Source of the DNA: Gemmobacter aquaticus
Lineage (GTDB): Bacteria > Pseudomonadota > Alphaproteobacteria > Rhodobacterales > Rhodobacteraceae
Direction: 5' to 3'
DNA length: 64,000 nucleotides
Assembly (NCBI RefSeq): GCF_007859075.1
Contig: NZ_VOAK01000011.1
Coordinates: forward strand, 1,302,001 to 1,366,000
Under the pieces are notes generated by a model. That model made no database searches, was not told the DNA's origin, and saw only the letters and a program-made list of their open reading frames with translations. Positions within the stretch are counted from its first letter, which is position 1, and each line of letters begins with the position of its first letter. This document shows, piece after piece, positions 3,694 through 42,586 of the stretch. Made by a program: the position numbers and the translations under genes.

Positions 3694-4353
3694 CTACGTC
3701 GCCTCGGCCCGAGAAAATTCTTCTGCGTTGCGCGCGGCAATGTCGGCAACGTCTGAAGCCTCGTCCGGCGTGCAGCCAACGGCCCGCAGAATGGCGCGCA
3801 CGATATCGGGAATGGCGCTGGCCTCAATCCGGCCGCTGCCGAACATCCGGGCGGCCTGCTCAGACAAGCCAATAACCAATCCAACCGCAAGCTCCACCGA
3901 GCCCACGCGGAGCTGGCCGAGCGACTGCGCACCCGCGAGATCATCACGAAGCCGCCATTGCACCGCCCGCCCAACATTCGGAAGCGCCGCAATGGCGTGG
4001 GCGGCAAGTCGGGCCTGGCCAGGGGCAACTGCAAGAAAGCCGAGAAAGAGCGTGACGCCCGTAGCCATACGTGTCAGCGGATCGGAAACGGCGGTTCGCG
4101 CGGGTTCCAGGCGTTCGATCAACTCCGCAATCAGCGCATCGCCCAATTCTGCCTGAAGCTCCGACATATCGGCGAAGTGAAGGTAGAAGGTTCCTTTCGC
4201 GACGCCAGCGCATTGAGTGACAGAGTCGACTGTCACTGTCGCGCTTTCCGCCGCAGAAAAACAGGTCCGCGCTGCATCGAGTATCGCGGCGCGTGTGCGG
4301 GCACGTTTCTCCCGGCCAATCTCTGCCCGTCGTTCCAAATTTACGCGCGCCAT
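3694..4353 (-). CDS. TetR/AcrR-family transcriptional regulator
   Basis: The protein has 219 residues from the ATG at 4353; the frame extends 16 codons upstream but MARVNLERR is the natural start. The N-terminal helix-turn-helix is clear: TRAAILDAARTCFS, then TVDSVTQCAGVAKGTFYLHF at about residues 38-57, the TetR recognition helix ending in the usual GTFYLHF. The C-terminal ligand domain is not assignable to a subgroup. It is transcribed away from the molybdopterin-enzyme gene at 5127, about 770 bases off, and could control that island, but no operator palindrome was found to prove it. Confidence 0.88.
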   Translation of the reverse strand: MARVNLERRAEIGREKRARTRAAILDAARTCFSAAESATVTVDSVTQCAGVAKGTFYLHFADMSELQAELGDALIAELIERLEPARTAVSDPLTRMATGVTLFLGFLAVAPGQARLAAHAIAALPNVGRAVQWRLRDDLAGAQSLGQLRVGSVELAVGLVIGLSEQAARMFGSGRIEASAIPDIVRAILRAVGCTPDEASDVADIAARNAEEFSRAEAT

Positions 4354-5126
4354 AGACGTTCGTTCCTGCTCTGCCCTTCCAGCCGGTCCGGGGCGGAGCA
4401 ATCCACCTCAGACCAGTTTGCGTTCAAACGGATAGTTCGCAATCCGCTGGCGCGCGCCCGGGTGGATACTATTGGCTTCACGTGCACGGTCAATCCTACG
4501 ACTGGAAAAGGCGCGGCTTCCGGTCTGGCGGCGCATCACAGGCACTTGTCCGATGTCGCCGGTCCCTTTTCAGGAGAGGCCTGTTGAACGAGCCCATGAC
4601 CGAGGGTTGTGGTATGCGCCCAAGTCAAAGCAGCAATGGGATCGTCGTCCGCTCTCCAGCTGACGTCAACCCACCACGCGAGCGGGACGCGGTACTATTG
4701 TGCCACGTACTATAGTCCTGTGGAACTGGGCCCCTGCGAGGCAGGATCGAGCAGAGCGCCGCCGATTGATCGCGATACCCATCAGGTTCAAGACCGCCTG
4801 CCCCCTGTCACAGCCATACAGGTAACGCGCCCGGACTGTGTACTCGGCGCCGTTGTCGTGGTCGATGTTTTCCGCGTTCATTCCGCTTCTCCCCCTGATT
4901 TCGATGACGTGCGGCGCGATACGCGACCTCGCCCCGCGGGCCATCGCCGCCAGCACATTCGTCCTTGCCCCCAAGCGCAACCGATTCCATATTGACCGCA
5001 TCGTCATATTGACTTTATCGTTCTCAAATAATTCAGATGCAGCTTCGGGGGAGGAAGACCGCATGGAATCGATAACCGCGCGCGCCGGCATGGCGCAGCC
5101 GCTGGCCTCTATTGGCTGACAAGCAA
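4354..5126. other. Gap between TetR gene and molybdopterin enzyme
   Basis: About 770 bases that should hold the promoters of the two divergent genes. The only coding signal recognised is the decayed FAD-monooxygenase fragment on the minus strand at 4768-4881. Other open frames here have no family pattern and no good ribosome-binding site. Confidence 0.5.
4768..4881 (-). pseudogene. Fragment of an FAD-dependent aromatic hydroxylase
   Basis: Within a minus-strand frame the segment GAEYTVRARYLYGCDRGQAV, followed by LNLMGI, matches the second FAD motif of the phenol/MhpA-type hydroxylases. The usual wording there is VRARYLVGCDGGRSxVRxLLGI. The key Gly after GCD is Arg and the S-x-V-R part is lost. 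No Rossmann N-terminus or C-terminal part of such an enzyme lies around it, so this looks like a remnant. Its place beside an aromatic catabolic island fits loss of an earlier hydroxylase. The recognition rests on about 25 residues only. Confidence 0.5.
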
Positions 5127-35141: not shown

Positions 35142-35225
35142 TGGTGCGGGTGGTCGGACTCGAACCGACACTCCTTGCGGAAACAGAGTTTGAGTCTGTC
35201 GCGTCTACCATTCCGCCACACCCGC
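35142..35225 (-). tRNA. tRNA-Leu (anticodon CAA)
   Basis: On the minus strand the acceptor arms GCGGGTG and CACCCGC pair, followed by A and an encoded CCA. The anticodon loop CTCAAAC gives CAA (bases 35190-35192). A long variable arm (TTTCCGCAAGGAGT region) marks a class II tRNA. The T arm is GTCGG TTCGAGT CCGAC. Confidence 0.96.
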
Positions 35226-38727: not shown

Positions 38728-39117
38728 ATGAAGGATATGGAAATTCCGCAGATGGACCTGAAGCTTCCGGCCGACAGCCCTGCCCCCTTGCCCGCCACTG
38801 GCCCCCGCGTGACGGACCGCGCCTTTGCGCGATTGGCCGAGATCGAGGAAATGACCGGCGCCCGCAAGCCGTTGCGTGTTGCGGTGTCGGGCGGCGGATG
38901 TTCGGGTTTTCAGTATGACATCCGCCTCGACGACGCCGCGCCCGATGATCTGGTGATGGAACGTGACGGCCAAAGGGTTCTGGTCGATCCGGTGTCGCTG
39001 CCCTTCCTGCAGAATGCAGTCATCGATTTCACCGAAGAATTGATCGGCGCGCGCTTCGTGATCGACAATCCTGACGCCAGTTCAAGCTGCGGATGCGGAA
39101 CGTCGTTTTCCTTCTGA
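38728..39117 (+). CDS. erpA: A-type iron-sulfur carrier (ErpA/HesB family)
   Basis: The protein has 129 residues from the ATG at 38728 (38737 also possible). The A-type scaffold signature is complete: RVTDRAFARLAEI, LRVAVSGGGCSGFQYDI with the first Cys, FLQNAVIDFTEELIGARFVI and the terminal CGCG pair in SSCGCGTSFSF. It delivers [2Fe-2S]/[4Fe-4S] clusters to apo-enzymes. The last 36 bases overlap the end of the convergent transporter gene. Confidence 0.9.
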   Translation: MKDMEIPQMDLKLPADSPAPLPATGPRVTDRAFARLAEIEEMTGARKPLRVAVSGGGCSGFQYDIRLDDAAPDDLVMERDGQRVLVDPVSLPFLQNAVIDFTEELIGARFVIDNPDASSSCGCGTSFSF

Positions 39118-40008
39118 GTTCTGCGCGCGTCTTTGGGCCTGCACCAGCCAGAGCCCAGAGGCGATGACAAGGCCCGCACCGGCCCAGACATTGGCACCCG
39201 TCGGTTCGCCAAAGACGAAATGCCCGACCAGAACCATCCAGACGAACTGGATGTTCCCGATCTGCAGTGCCACATGCGCCGGGATCAGACGCACGACCAT
39301 GACCATCAGCCAGCGCGTGGCCAGCAGGAACAGCGTGTACAGCGCCAGAAGGCCCATGTCCTGGGTCTGCATCGGTTTCCAGACCAGTGGCAGCAGCAAA
39401 AGGCCCAGCACCGCGCAGGCCATCTGGGCGTAGAACACCTGGGCGAAGGCATGGGTGTGGCTGCGGCAAATCCCGCGTGACAGAACGATCGAGGCCGCAC
39501 CTGTCAGGCTTGCGCCAAGGCCGAGCATGTGCCCGCGCGTGACGCCGGGAATACCCTCGGGGAACAGAAAGAACATGCCCGTCATGCCAAAGGCCAGCGC
39601 AATCCAGACCGCAAGACCGATCCGTTCCTTCAGGATCGGGCCGGACAGGACTGCGGCAAAGATCGGCAGGATCGCGATAAAGGGAAACATCTCTGCAAAG
39701 GGCAACTCGCGATAGGCCAGAAAGAACCCCACCGTACTGATGGCGCCCAGCATTGAGCGCAGCGCCACGCGACCGGGCGCCCCGGTCCTCAGCACGATGT
39801 CACGACTGCCCGCGAGCGACATGAGCAACCCGATCGTCACTGCAATCAGCCCTGCCCCGGCCATGAGTTGCGGCGCGGCATAGCTTGCGACCAGATCCTT
39901 TGCCAAGGCATCTGCGCTGACAGAGACCAGTGTATTGAGAACTGCCAACCCCGCCCCAAGAAGGGCGGCCCCCTGCAAGACCCTTGGCCGTGCCGGGAAT
40001 GTCGTCAT
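39082..40008 (-). CDS. EamA/DMT-superfamily transporter
   Basis: The 308-residue protein has ten hydrophobic segments in two EamA repeats. The first contains LRSMLGAISTVGFFLAYRELPFAEMFPFIAI and the second ALQIGNIQFVWMVLVGHFVFGEP, the usual E-P end of the conserved helix pair. These transporters export amino acids or small metabolites. Its start (ATGA at 40005-40008) overlaps the stop of the 365-residue gene, so the two are translationally coupled; with the MPCSN-repeat peptide upstream it could act as exporter for that group (inference). Confidence 0.88.
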   Translation of the reverse strand: MTTFPARPRVLQGAALLGAGLAVLNTLVSVSADALAKDLVASYAAPQLMAGAGLIAVTIGLLMSLAGSRDIVLRTGAPGRVALRSMLGAISTVGFFLAYRELPFAEMFPFIAILPIFAAVLSGPILKERIGLAVWIALAFGMTGMFFLFPEGIPGVTRGHMLGLGASLTGAASIVLSRGICRSHTHAFAQVFYAQMACAVLGLLLLPLVWKPMQTQDMGLLALYTLFLLATRWLMVMVVRLIPAHVALQIGNIQFVWMVLVGHFVFGEPTGANVWAGAGLVIASGLWLVQAQRRAQNSEGKRRSASAA

Positions 40009-41102
40009 GCGCGGCCCCGTCTGGCACTGCCCTCAGGCATCGCGCCTGTACGCGCGAAGGCCCTGAAGAATGCCGCAAATTCGGGTGAACCTGCCGCCCC
40101 GCTATCGGCAACCGCCAAGGCATGGGCACTGACCCTGGTCGCGCAGGCCTTGCGCATCGCGTCCCAATCATCCGACCGGGCAGGCCCCAGTGCGCGCAGC
40201 GCCTGCGACCATTCACGTAGTGGCGATACGTGCAAAACTGGCAGGCGAAAACTCATCGGACCTGAACCATGGATTTCCGTGAAAGCAGCATTGCCCATAG
40301 TGCCGATCAACCATTGGCTGACAAGATAATTGTGATAGGCATCCGAGGAATCCGGGCAGGGACGGCTATCGATACGGAACTTTCCAGCCTCGGCGGCTAG
40401 GTAGTCTGCCCAAAGCGCGGGCAGATCCTGCCCGGCGTGACGCAGCGCGACACAGACCTCGGCCAGCAGATCGGCATTCTGGTCGAGATGGGCAAGGCAG
40501 CCCAGCATGTGCAGGCTTTCCAGCACTTGCGAAGGGAGCTGCAAGGATGTGCGGCCATAGTCGCCCAGATAGAACACCGCATGGACCAGATCATAGGCCG
40601 CCCGCGGGTTGGGCAGGGCAAAGGTTTGCGGGCGGCTGGCAAAGCCGAGCAGACGCTCGGTCAGCCCCGGCATCTCAACCTTATGTCCGGCGCGGGCCAG
40701 CAGATGGCGCACCTCGGCGCGCTGAAGGTCGTTCACCTCACTTGCTGGCCAATCCTCGGTGATGATCCATTCAGCCATACGGGTGGAGAGTCCCGTGGGC
40801 ATTCCCAAGGCTTCGAGATTCACGACAACATTCAGGATCAGCCGATAATACTGCGGATGAAAGGCCAGCATATCTGCGGCCTCATCCAGAAACGGGCGAT
40901 AGACAGCAAGTGCTGCCACAGGCACCCGCGCCCCGGTCGCCGCAAGGATGCCCAGCACCTCGGCGTTTTCCTTCAGCCAAAACGGATCGCCCGTCCGGCG
41001 CCGATGTAAGGCGAAGGCTTCCAGAAGGCGATGCAGCCCCCCGTCCTGCGACAGGGGGCGCGCGCTCTGCGAGCGGAAGGCAAGGCGGATCACATTTGAC
41101 AT
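40005..41102 (-). CDS. Hypothetical helical protein, partner of the repeat peptide gene
   Basis: This is a 365-residue soluble protein. It begins MSNVIRLAFRS and is largely alpha-helical, with regularly spaced segments such as GLHRLLEAFALHRRRTGDPFW, AFHPQYYRLILNVVVNLEAL, YDLVHAVFYLGDYGR and LESLHMLGCLAHLDQNADLL. That pattern resembles helical-repeat folds. SSDAYHNYLVSQWLIGTMGN may be a functional patch. No catalytic motif, signal peptide or membrane helix is seen and I recognise no family with a known role. It lies between the repeat-peptide gene (80 bases upstream) and the EamA transporter (4-base overlap). Confidence 0.75.
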   Translation of the reverse strand: MSNVIRLAFRSQSARPLSQDGGLHRLLEAFALHRRRTGDPFWLKENAEVLGILAATGARVPVAALAVYRPFLDEAADMLAFHPQYYRLILNVVVNLEALGMPTGLSTRMAEWIITEDWPASEVNDLQRAEVRHLLARAGHKVEMPGLTERLLGFASRPQTFALPNPRAAYDLVHAVFYLGDYGRTSLQLPSQVLESLHMLGCLAHLDQNADLLAEVCVALRHAGQDLPALWADYLAAEAGKFRIDSRPCPDSSDAYHNYLVSQWLIGTMGNAAFTEIHGSGPMSFRLPVLHVSPLREWSQALRALGPARSDDWDAMRKACATRVSAHALAVADSGAAGSPEFAAFFRAFARTGAMPEGSARRGRA

Positions 41103-41182
41103 CGTGTTCTTCTCGCCCGGCCTGCGCTGTGCCCCGCCAGACGCCGGGTCGCAGCCGGTTCAGTCTGGCGGCAGGCGCTGGA

Positions 41183-41437
41183 TCAGTTGGAGCAGGGCAT
41201 CACGGCCGCATGGCCGCCGCCGATCATATCTCCGCCCTCGATGTTCGAGCAGGGCATCAGGTCAGCCGCAATCCCGGTTTCGACGTTCGAGCAGGGCATC
41301 AGCGCAACATCCCCACCAGCCAGCATATCGCCGCCTTCGATGTTGGAGCAGGGCATCAGGTCGGCCGCATGGCCCATGGTCATGTCGAGCGCGGTGTCGA
41401 CGATGGTTTCTTGGGCAATCTTGCGAAGGGCAGTCAT
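41183..41437 (-). CDS. 84-residue peptide with four MPCSN repeats (candidate repetitive precursor)
   Basis: It starts at an ATG at 41437 with GGAGTG 9 bases upstream. Residues 1-23 look like a leader: a helical MTALRKIAQETIVDTALDMT ending before MGH. The rest carries AADLMPCSN, VALMPCSN, AADLMPCSN and AAVMPCSN, with the Cys at 30, 49, 63 and 82. Spacings 19, 14, 19 show a doubled 33-residue unit. Linkers are IEGGDMLAGGD, VETGI and IEGGDMIGGGH. The protein ends directly after the last MPCSN. Cys occurs only in the repeats. A leader plus Cys-containing repeated cores is the layout of multi-core RiPP precursors, but metal binding or an adhesive role is also possible. No known modification enzyme is adjacent. 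Confidence 0.72.
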   Translation of the reverse strand: MTALRKIAQETIVDTALDMTMGHAADLMPCSNIEGGDMLAGGDVALMPCSNVETGIAADLMPCSNIEGGDMIGGGHAAVMPCSN

Positions 41438-41776
41438 GGTTCAACACTCCGGTTGGGTGGAAAGACCCCCTCAGCGTTGCGCTTGACAGTTGTTTTTACA
41501 AACGATTTTGCATCCACAGGTTGTTCGCAGACCTGTCCACATCAGCTTTGCCGGGTAAGCCAATGACCTTGGCCAAAGTCCGCGTCGGGGTGCGTTTAAT
41601 CCACCGACGCGTGACACGCACTTATGCACACAACCCTAGATTTATGCCGATTCGCGCGCCTTCCGGCCTGGGTAGCAGGGGTGGGAAAGGATACCGGCCC
41701 TTGCCATGCCGCTGGCCAGCGGCGATAGAGAAAACCGGTCACCGACCTGACAAAGGTTGGCCAGCGGAGGGATGCC
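41438..41776. other. Divergent control region between repeat peptide and xth genes
   Basis: About 340 bases without a gene. An inverted repeat ACAGGT (41516-41521) / ACCTGT (41531-41536) and AT-rich sequence around 41489-41510 lie about 50-100 bases before the peptide gene. TTGACA at 41483-41488 points to the plus strand. Two TGTGGA-like words near 41511-41540 on the minus strand resemble degenerate DnaA boxes but are too weak to call. Confidence 0.4.
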
Positions 41777-42586
41777 ATGAAGATCGCCACGTTCAACATC
41801 AACGGCATCCGCGCGCGGATCGAGGCGCTGCCGCGCTGGCTGTCAGAGGCGCGCCCCGATGTCGTGGCGCTGCAGGAGATCAAGACGGTTGACGAAGGTT
41901 TCCCGCGCGAGCTTTTCGAGGATATGGGCTATCGCGTGGAAACCCACGGCCAGAAAAGCTTCAACGGGGTGGCGATCCTCTCACGCCTGCCGCTTGAGGA
42001 TGTCTCGCGCGGGCTTCCGGGCGACGACAGCGACGAGCAAGCCCGATGGATCGAGGCGACCGTAATGGGCGACAAGCGCGCAGTTCGGCTCTGCGCGCTC
42101 TATCTGCCCAACGGAAACCCCGTTGAGTTTGACGCAGCTGACCGCCCGCTGCACACCGGGAAATACGGCTACAAGCTCAACTGGATGCGCCGGATGCGCG
42201 CGCATGCGCAGACCTTGCTGGACCGGGAGGAACCGTTGGTCCTTGCGGGCGACTACAACATCATCCCGCAGGCCGAGGATGCCGCCCGCCCCGAGGCCTG
42301 GGCGCGCGATGCGCTGTTCCTGCCCGAAAGCCGCGCGGCCTTCCGCCAGATCCTGAACCTTGGACTGACAGAGGCCTTCCGCGCCCGGCATGCGGGGCCG
42401 GGGCACTATTCATTCTGGGACTATCAGGCCGGCGCATGGGAGCGGAACAACGGCATCCGCATCGACCATCTGCTGCTCAGCCCGCAGGCGGCTGACCTTC
42501 TGCGCGATGCAGGCATCGATCGTGACGTGCGCGCCGGAGAAAAGCCCTCCGATCACGTACCGGTCTGGATCGAGCTCGACACCTGA
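41777..42586 (+). CDS. xth: Exodeoxyribonuclease III
   Basis: The protein has 269 residues with GGAGGGATGCC before the ATG. The EEP-nuclease fold shows in order: MKIATFNINGIRARIEALPRWL with the Asn ligand, VALQEIKT with the metal Glu, YGYKLNWMRRM, GDYNIIPQAEDA with Asp/Asn, and the final SDHVPVWIEL with catalytic Asp-His. It removes 3' phosphates and cuts at abasic sites in DNA repair. Length matches E. coli XthA (268). Confidence 0.95.
   Translation: MKIATFNINGIRARIEALPRWLSEARPDVVALQEIKTVDEGFPRELFEDMGYRVETHGQKSFNGVAILSRLPLEDVSRGLPGDDSDEQARWIEATVMGDKRAVRLCALYLPNGNPVEFDAADRPLHTGKYGYKLNWMRRMRAHAQTLLDREEPLVLAGDYNIIPQAEDAARPEAWARDALFLPESRAAFRQILNLGLTEAFRARHAGPGHYSFWDYQAGAWERNNGIRIDHLLLSPQAADLLRDAGIDRDVRAGEKPSDHVPVWIELDT

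Follow-up and report, generated by a model that had tools for sequence, protein, structure and literature searches.

Gene content of the locus

The window, by which we mean the whole 64,000-nucleotide stretch of Gemmobacter aquaticus DNA that was analyzed, carries three consecutive genes on one strand, encoding a short repetitive peptide, a protein of the family DUF6902 and an EamA-type transporter (Table 1). Two genes on the opposite strand, one ErpA-like and one with a PF03372 domain that we take to be exonuclease III, flank this set. A tRNA-Leu (CAA) lies a few kb from the locus, at window positions 35142-35225.

Table 1. Features of the peptide/DUF6902 locus, in window coordinates
Feature	Position	Strand	Basis and remarks
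84-aa precursor-like peptide	41183..41437	(-)	Leader residues ~1-23 and four MPCSN cores
DUF6902 protein, 365 aa, presumed maturase	40005..41102	(-)	Pfam PF21843, 361.5 bits; PF21836, 58.1 bits
EamA-type transporter	39082..40008	(-)	Pfam PF00892; 4-base overlap with DUF6902 gene
ErpA-like Fe-S protein gene	38755..39117	(+)	Pfam PF01521, synteny; conserved flank, outside the system
Exonuclease III-like gene	41777..42586	(+)	Pfam PF03372, synteny; conserved flank, outside the system
Region upstream of peptide gene	41438..41640	(-)	Only degenerate TGTGGATGC, TGTGGACAG of the relatives' TGTGNATAA element

The MPCSN motif starts at residues 28, 47, 61 and 80 of the peptide, the only cysteines are those at residues 30, 49, 63 and 82, and the C-terminus falls exactly on the fourth motif; among 20,000 shuffles of the peptide, the 5-mer count never exceeded two. 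An earlier note on this DNA had described four MPCSN motifs holding all the cysteines and a duplicated 33-residue unit reaching the exact C-terminus, and this description holds: the final 33 residues and the 33 before them agree at 24 positions, 15 with the same codon and 9 with synonymous codons, so the likeness of the repeats does not come only from recent copying. The same note had placed an unknown 365-residue gene downstream on the same strand and an EamA gene overlapping it by 4 bases. Both genes are where it put them, with 80 bases separating the peptide gene from its neighbor, and the unknown protein can now be named as a DUF6902 member homologous to DUF6895.

At curated Pfam and NCBIfam cut-offs, neither the window peptide nor seven of its relatives gave a match, and the genome carrying the window holds one such peptide. 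Used as a query, the peptide matched in 6 of 295 genomes, including the window's own; the other five matches had E-values of 0.003-0.008, and one of these (L003) is a true relative on reading. The peptide query being nearly useless, relatives were gathered by searching with DUF6902.

The DUF6902 protein and its conserved residues

The 365-residue protein scores far above the Pfam cut-off for DUF6902 (cut-off 27, E = 5.3e-108) and also exceeds that for DUF6895 (cut-off 23.8, E = 1.2e-15). Aligning the two families directly with hhalign (59 DUF6902 rows, 10 DUF6895 rows) gave a probability of 96.7% and an E-value of 3.5e-10, over an alignment that reaches only residue ~240; the YH motif beyond was matched in a multiple alignment instead. 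Row set A1 comprised the window and 63 of the 67 fetched loci (all but L067, L068, L071 and L073); row set A2 comprised the window and 58 of 80 loci (L120 contains N, L142 and L195 are short frames, and the rest were omitted for size).

Seven residues, Y170, H174, G183, D211, E215, Y256 and H257, are retained in 125-127 of 127 aligned DUF6902 proteins, and their counterparts are invariant in the 10 DUF6895 rows, so that both families share the motifs Y-x3-H, D-x3-E and YH. This count, like the tree described below, covers 127 of 132 distinct DUF6902 proteins (without L067, L120, L142, L171 and L195). H174, D211, E215, Y256 and H257 are retained in 126 of the 127, the exception being L073. We infer that the residues shared between the two families are acid/base catalytic residues. 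Searches by sequence for a related solved structure returned only scattered matches (E = 0.25-0.81), and Pfam at E-values up to 1 reported DUF6902 and DUF6895 only, with no calcineurin-like metallophosphatase domain at the sequence level.

Distribution and linkage

Of 248 genomes sampled from the window's family, 69 carry DUF6902, the window's own genome counted, and a 299-genome sample of the phylum gave 4 with it, all four from that same family; on plasmids, the window DUF6902 had no match. Scanning named genomes yielded 387 confirmed relatives, the nearest in Gemmobacter, of which the best 80 were kept. Together with 67 fetched loci and the window, these gave 148 loci with 132 distinct DUF6902 proteins and 16 duplicate pairs.

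DUF6902 is preceded on the same strand by a repetitive peptide in 146 of 147 testable loci (L171 begins at a contig edge and was left out), so the linkage between the two genes that the earlier note had put forward as a check is nearly constant. Several peptides run into contig edges or are masked in part, with their cores still visible; ten loci were read by eye (L048, L050, L060, L065, L069, L073, L084, L101, L121 and L128). The distance between the two genes is mostly 30 to 180 bases, reaching 343 in L084.

The sole testable locus without a peptide, L073 (DUF6902 at 3902-4996), serves as a natural control. Its protein carries Q, L, R, L and T in place of H174, D211, E215, Y256 and H257, and keeps 18 of 37 near-invariant positions, where the other DUF6902 proteins keep at least 35. 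L073 sits at the usual site between ErpA and exonuclease III flanks, has the longest end branch in the tree and gave no match to EamA. Loss of these residues is as expected from loss of the substrate, in what is a single event, and the L073 protein may be a remnant or may have taken on a new role.

With duplicates counted, 119 of the 147 related loci have an EamA gene like that of the window after DUF6902; others, such as that of Marivita, keep the peptide and DUF6902 but gave no such EamA match. EamA is a frequent but dispensable third gene, and the exporter is the weaker part of what the earlier note proposed. The five Pfam-scanned genes of the locus include neither a protease nor a dedicated peptide exporter.

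The chromosomal site is also conserved. Exonuclease III lies upstream in 135 of the 147 related loci, and ErpA and Dgt each lie downstream in 125. All 20 examined genomes without DUF6902 have the ErpA gene, and 15 of them have exonuclease III within the same ~1.5 kb flank stretch, ~70 to 1400 bases away; the module thus resembles an insert that a genome either has or lacks within a gene order of older date.

Variation and selection in the repeats

Repeat number, whose variation among homologues had been proposed as a test of a multi-core peptide, ranges from 2 to 20 cores across 129 peptides; this is an approximate, automated count that used a distance limit, since long overlapping open reading frames compete. 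The leader, predicted to be conserved, bears this out among the 104 leaders fitting our pattern, with A at position 3 in 79 and K at position 6 in 81, although the pattern requires K, R or H at residues 4-9 and the lysine frequency is therefore partly selected for. Termination is also regular, 94 of the 129 peptides ending at the same distance past the last core.

Repeats follow the approximate grammar G-[DE]-[AG]-[VT]-x-[MLA]-F-[TS]-S-[GSW]-x-x-P, with core types including MFSSGSAP, FTSWSGP, FTSGL, FTTSC, FTNWC, FTCGL, MMCCS, MPASN and MPCSN. We compared copies within single peptides at the codon level (sets of 121 and 123 loci; composition was taken from the 129 peptides and upstream regions from 123 loci). 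Across 123 loci, pN/pS was 0.86 in the linker (-12 to -7), 0.46 in the pre-core frame (-6 to -1), 0.11 at the glycine at -6, 0.30 at core positions +4 to +6 and 0.08 at core positions 0 to +3. Copies were picked on positions 0 to +3 only, so the values at other positions are free of selection bias, aside from the small weight that the glycine had in motif choice; with pS at ~0.5-0.7, synonymous differences are frequent and all ratios are rough. Choosing copies by amino-acid likeness of the core, which is biased, gave 0.33 for the core and 0.85 for the linker (121 loci). Cores differ in sequence but evolve under purifying selection.

Mapped onto the DUF6902 tree, which has many weak forks, core type changes 38 times, against 67-79 changes in 100 shuffles. 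Core type therefore tracks the enzyme tree yet has switched many times, as if DUF6902 tolerates new cores.

An upstream element resembling the DnaA box

Within 260 bases upstream of the peptide gene, TGTGNATAA occurs on either strand in 78 of 123 loci (e.g. L117, L037 and L079). It is missing in 45, the window's among them: the exact TGTGGATAA is absent from the window locus, and degenerate copies of TGTGNATAA lie at ~41490-41560. Controls gave TGTGNATAA in 0 of 1168 tiles and in 0 of 15 ErpA-exonuclease III intervals from genomes without the module; the tiles are mostly coding, so part of this contrast may be composition. The sites are most frequent near -120 and -200 relative to the start, and one strand predominates, with TGTGGATAA in 67 and TTATCCACA in 15. 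However, TGTGGATAAC is rare in whole genomes, with only 5 to 8 occurrences in each of six, and by coordinates one of these occurrences is at the peptide locus in three of the six. The element TGTGNATAA is complementary to TTATCCACA, the DnaA box of E. coli; a Rhodobacteraceae oriC study used this box as well (PMC6699656).

Interpretation and alternatives

The precursor/enzyme family is real, widespread and coherent. The case for a RiPP-type system is strong: the locus encodes a precursor with a conserved leader and a variable core beside a linked candidate maturation enzyme, and the multi-core design suggested by the earlier note gains support from the variation in repeat number, the conserved leader and the linkage at 146 of 147 testable loci. 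With moderate confidence, we favor a multi-core RiPP-type precursor whose cores would be modified, most likely epimerized, by DUF6902. Epimerization is the plausible part of this reading, by analogy. The label comes for DUF6902 solely from homology to DUF6895, a protein of which is called a lasso peptide epimerase in one title of 2026 (doi 10.1021/acscatal.5c08590), cited as reference 371 of PMC13352647.

For modification, epimerization, recognition, cleavage, export and function, we infer the following scheme. The core system would consist of two genes, peptide and DUF6902, often joined by an EamA transporter. DUF6902 would recognize the conserved N-terminal leader and/or a conserved frame, G-[DE]-x-[VT]-x-[ML]-F, that precedes each core, and would modify the cores, most likely epimerizing one residue per core from L to D through the paired acid/base residues H174, D211/E215 and Y256-H257. 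Linkers would presumably be cleaved, setting short peptides free, or the chain may act whole once modified, and EamA may export the product in the species having it.

The strongest competitor keeps the same precursor/maturase pair and has DUF6902 modify the cores by a reaction other than epimerization, for instance at Ser, Thr or Cys side chains or at the backbone. We consider this unlikely, though well ahead of the other alternatives. Cores are indeed rich in Ser and Thr, some with Cys, and the two families are distant enough for their chemistries to differ, since the DUF6902 and DUF6895 rows are only 18-24% identical to the window protein. However, the invariant H, D, E and YH residues are common to both families, and the cores have no one side chain in common: the residue at +2, although Ser in 78%, can also be T, C, A or N.

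Alternatively, the repeats could form a folded protein, either a solenoid or a cysteine metal site, with DUF6902 as its chaperone or binding partner. A core spacing of mostly 20-21 residues would suit such a fold, but spacings range from 8 to 22 (also 13, 14, 16, 17 and 19), several of them mixed inside one peptide, and we regard this explanation as improbable. The zinc site built by the four cysteines, which the earlier note had named as the explanation that would overturn its proposal, fares no better, because the repeats of 58 of the 129 peptides lack Cys and the relative G. serpentinus, also a Gemmobacter, has MPASN in place of MPCSN; the metal-site candidate was rejected on this absence of conserved Cys. 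A toxin-antitoxin or defense pair, suggested by the arrangement of a short gene with a longer one behind it on one strand, is very improbable, as PADLOC matched none of the peptide, DUF6902 and EamA proteins, and to our knowledge neither a constant chromosomal site nor a conserved core grammar is typical of such pairs.

Returning to the precursor modified by DUF6902, we tentatively extend it to a further proposal that we hold to be possible and still doubtful: DUF6902 may represent a new class making multi-core ribosomal peptides with D-amino acids at one site across the family, the cores being free to diverge while the enzyme stays, with transcription in many species controlled by a DnaA-box-like element, which would couple production to the replication cycle. 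Among the papers listed for DUF6902/DUF6895, lasso and other peptide epimerases, multicore peptides, and RiPPs of Rhodobacteraceae and Roseobacter, none described the peptide/DUF6902 system, which is weak evidence of novelty since subscription papers fell largely outside the coverage. The analysis joins an uncharacterized family to its likely substrate and suggests that DUF6895-type enzymes act beyond lasso peptides; the loci supply both a set of residues for mutation and natural substrates of low and high core number. If the epimerase reading is true, a single enzyme would invert many sites along one ribosomal chain.

Comparison with known systems

Multi-core RiPP precursors such as those of dikaritins and cyanobactins carry a leader followed by repeated cores whose number varies among homologues. 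The peptides described here share this layout and its variable copy number. They differ in that the enzymes of those pathways are absent among the Pfam-scanned genes of the locus, where there is one linked partner, of another family.

MslH is a Ca-dependent lasso peptide epimerase with two His/Asp pairs and a calcineurin-like fold (PMC10406935). The likeness is peptide epimerization by paired residues, which we propose for DUF6902 by analogy; the difference is the fold, the window protein matching only DUF6902 and DUF6895 in Pfam.

DUF6895 (PF21836) is the closest comparison, with the window protein over its cut-off and the three motifs held in common. We inspected nine DUF6895 loci (L108, L109, L196, L197, L198, L199, L200, L201 and L202). 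A short peptide gene lies directly upstream of DUF6895 in six (L108, L109, L196, L197, L198 and L202), and L199 has a short open reading frame two genes away. L108 and L109 come from other Pseudomonadota and carry G[PR]W[FY]-type cores beside DUF6895: L108 (751-1350) has two peptide copies, ending GRWYVYVGTEE and GPWFVLAGDQT, and L109 (2407-2838) has a single two-core peptide with two GPW motifs. On Streptomyces plasmids, DUF6895 genes form adjacent pairs (L199, 3718-5603; L201, 3559-5801), and the L199 pair has genes for a serine hydrolase and a P450 beside it. Among the five DUF6895 stretches that carry annotation, none has a gene annotated as a lasso synthase. Unlike DUF6895, DUF6902 has all its hits in the phylum sample within the window's family, and it is a separate Pfam family whose putative substrates are multi-core repeats.
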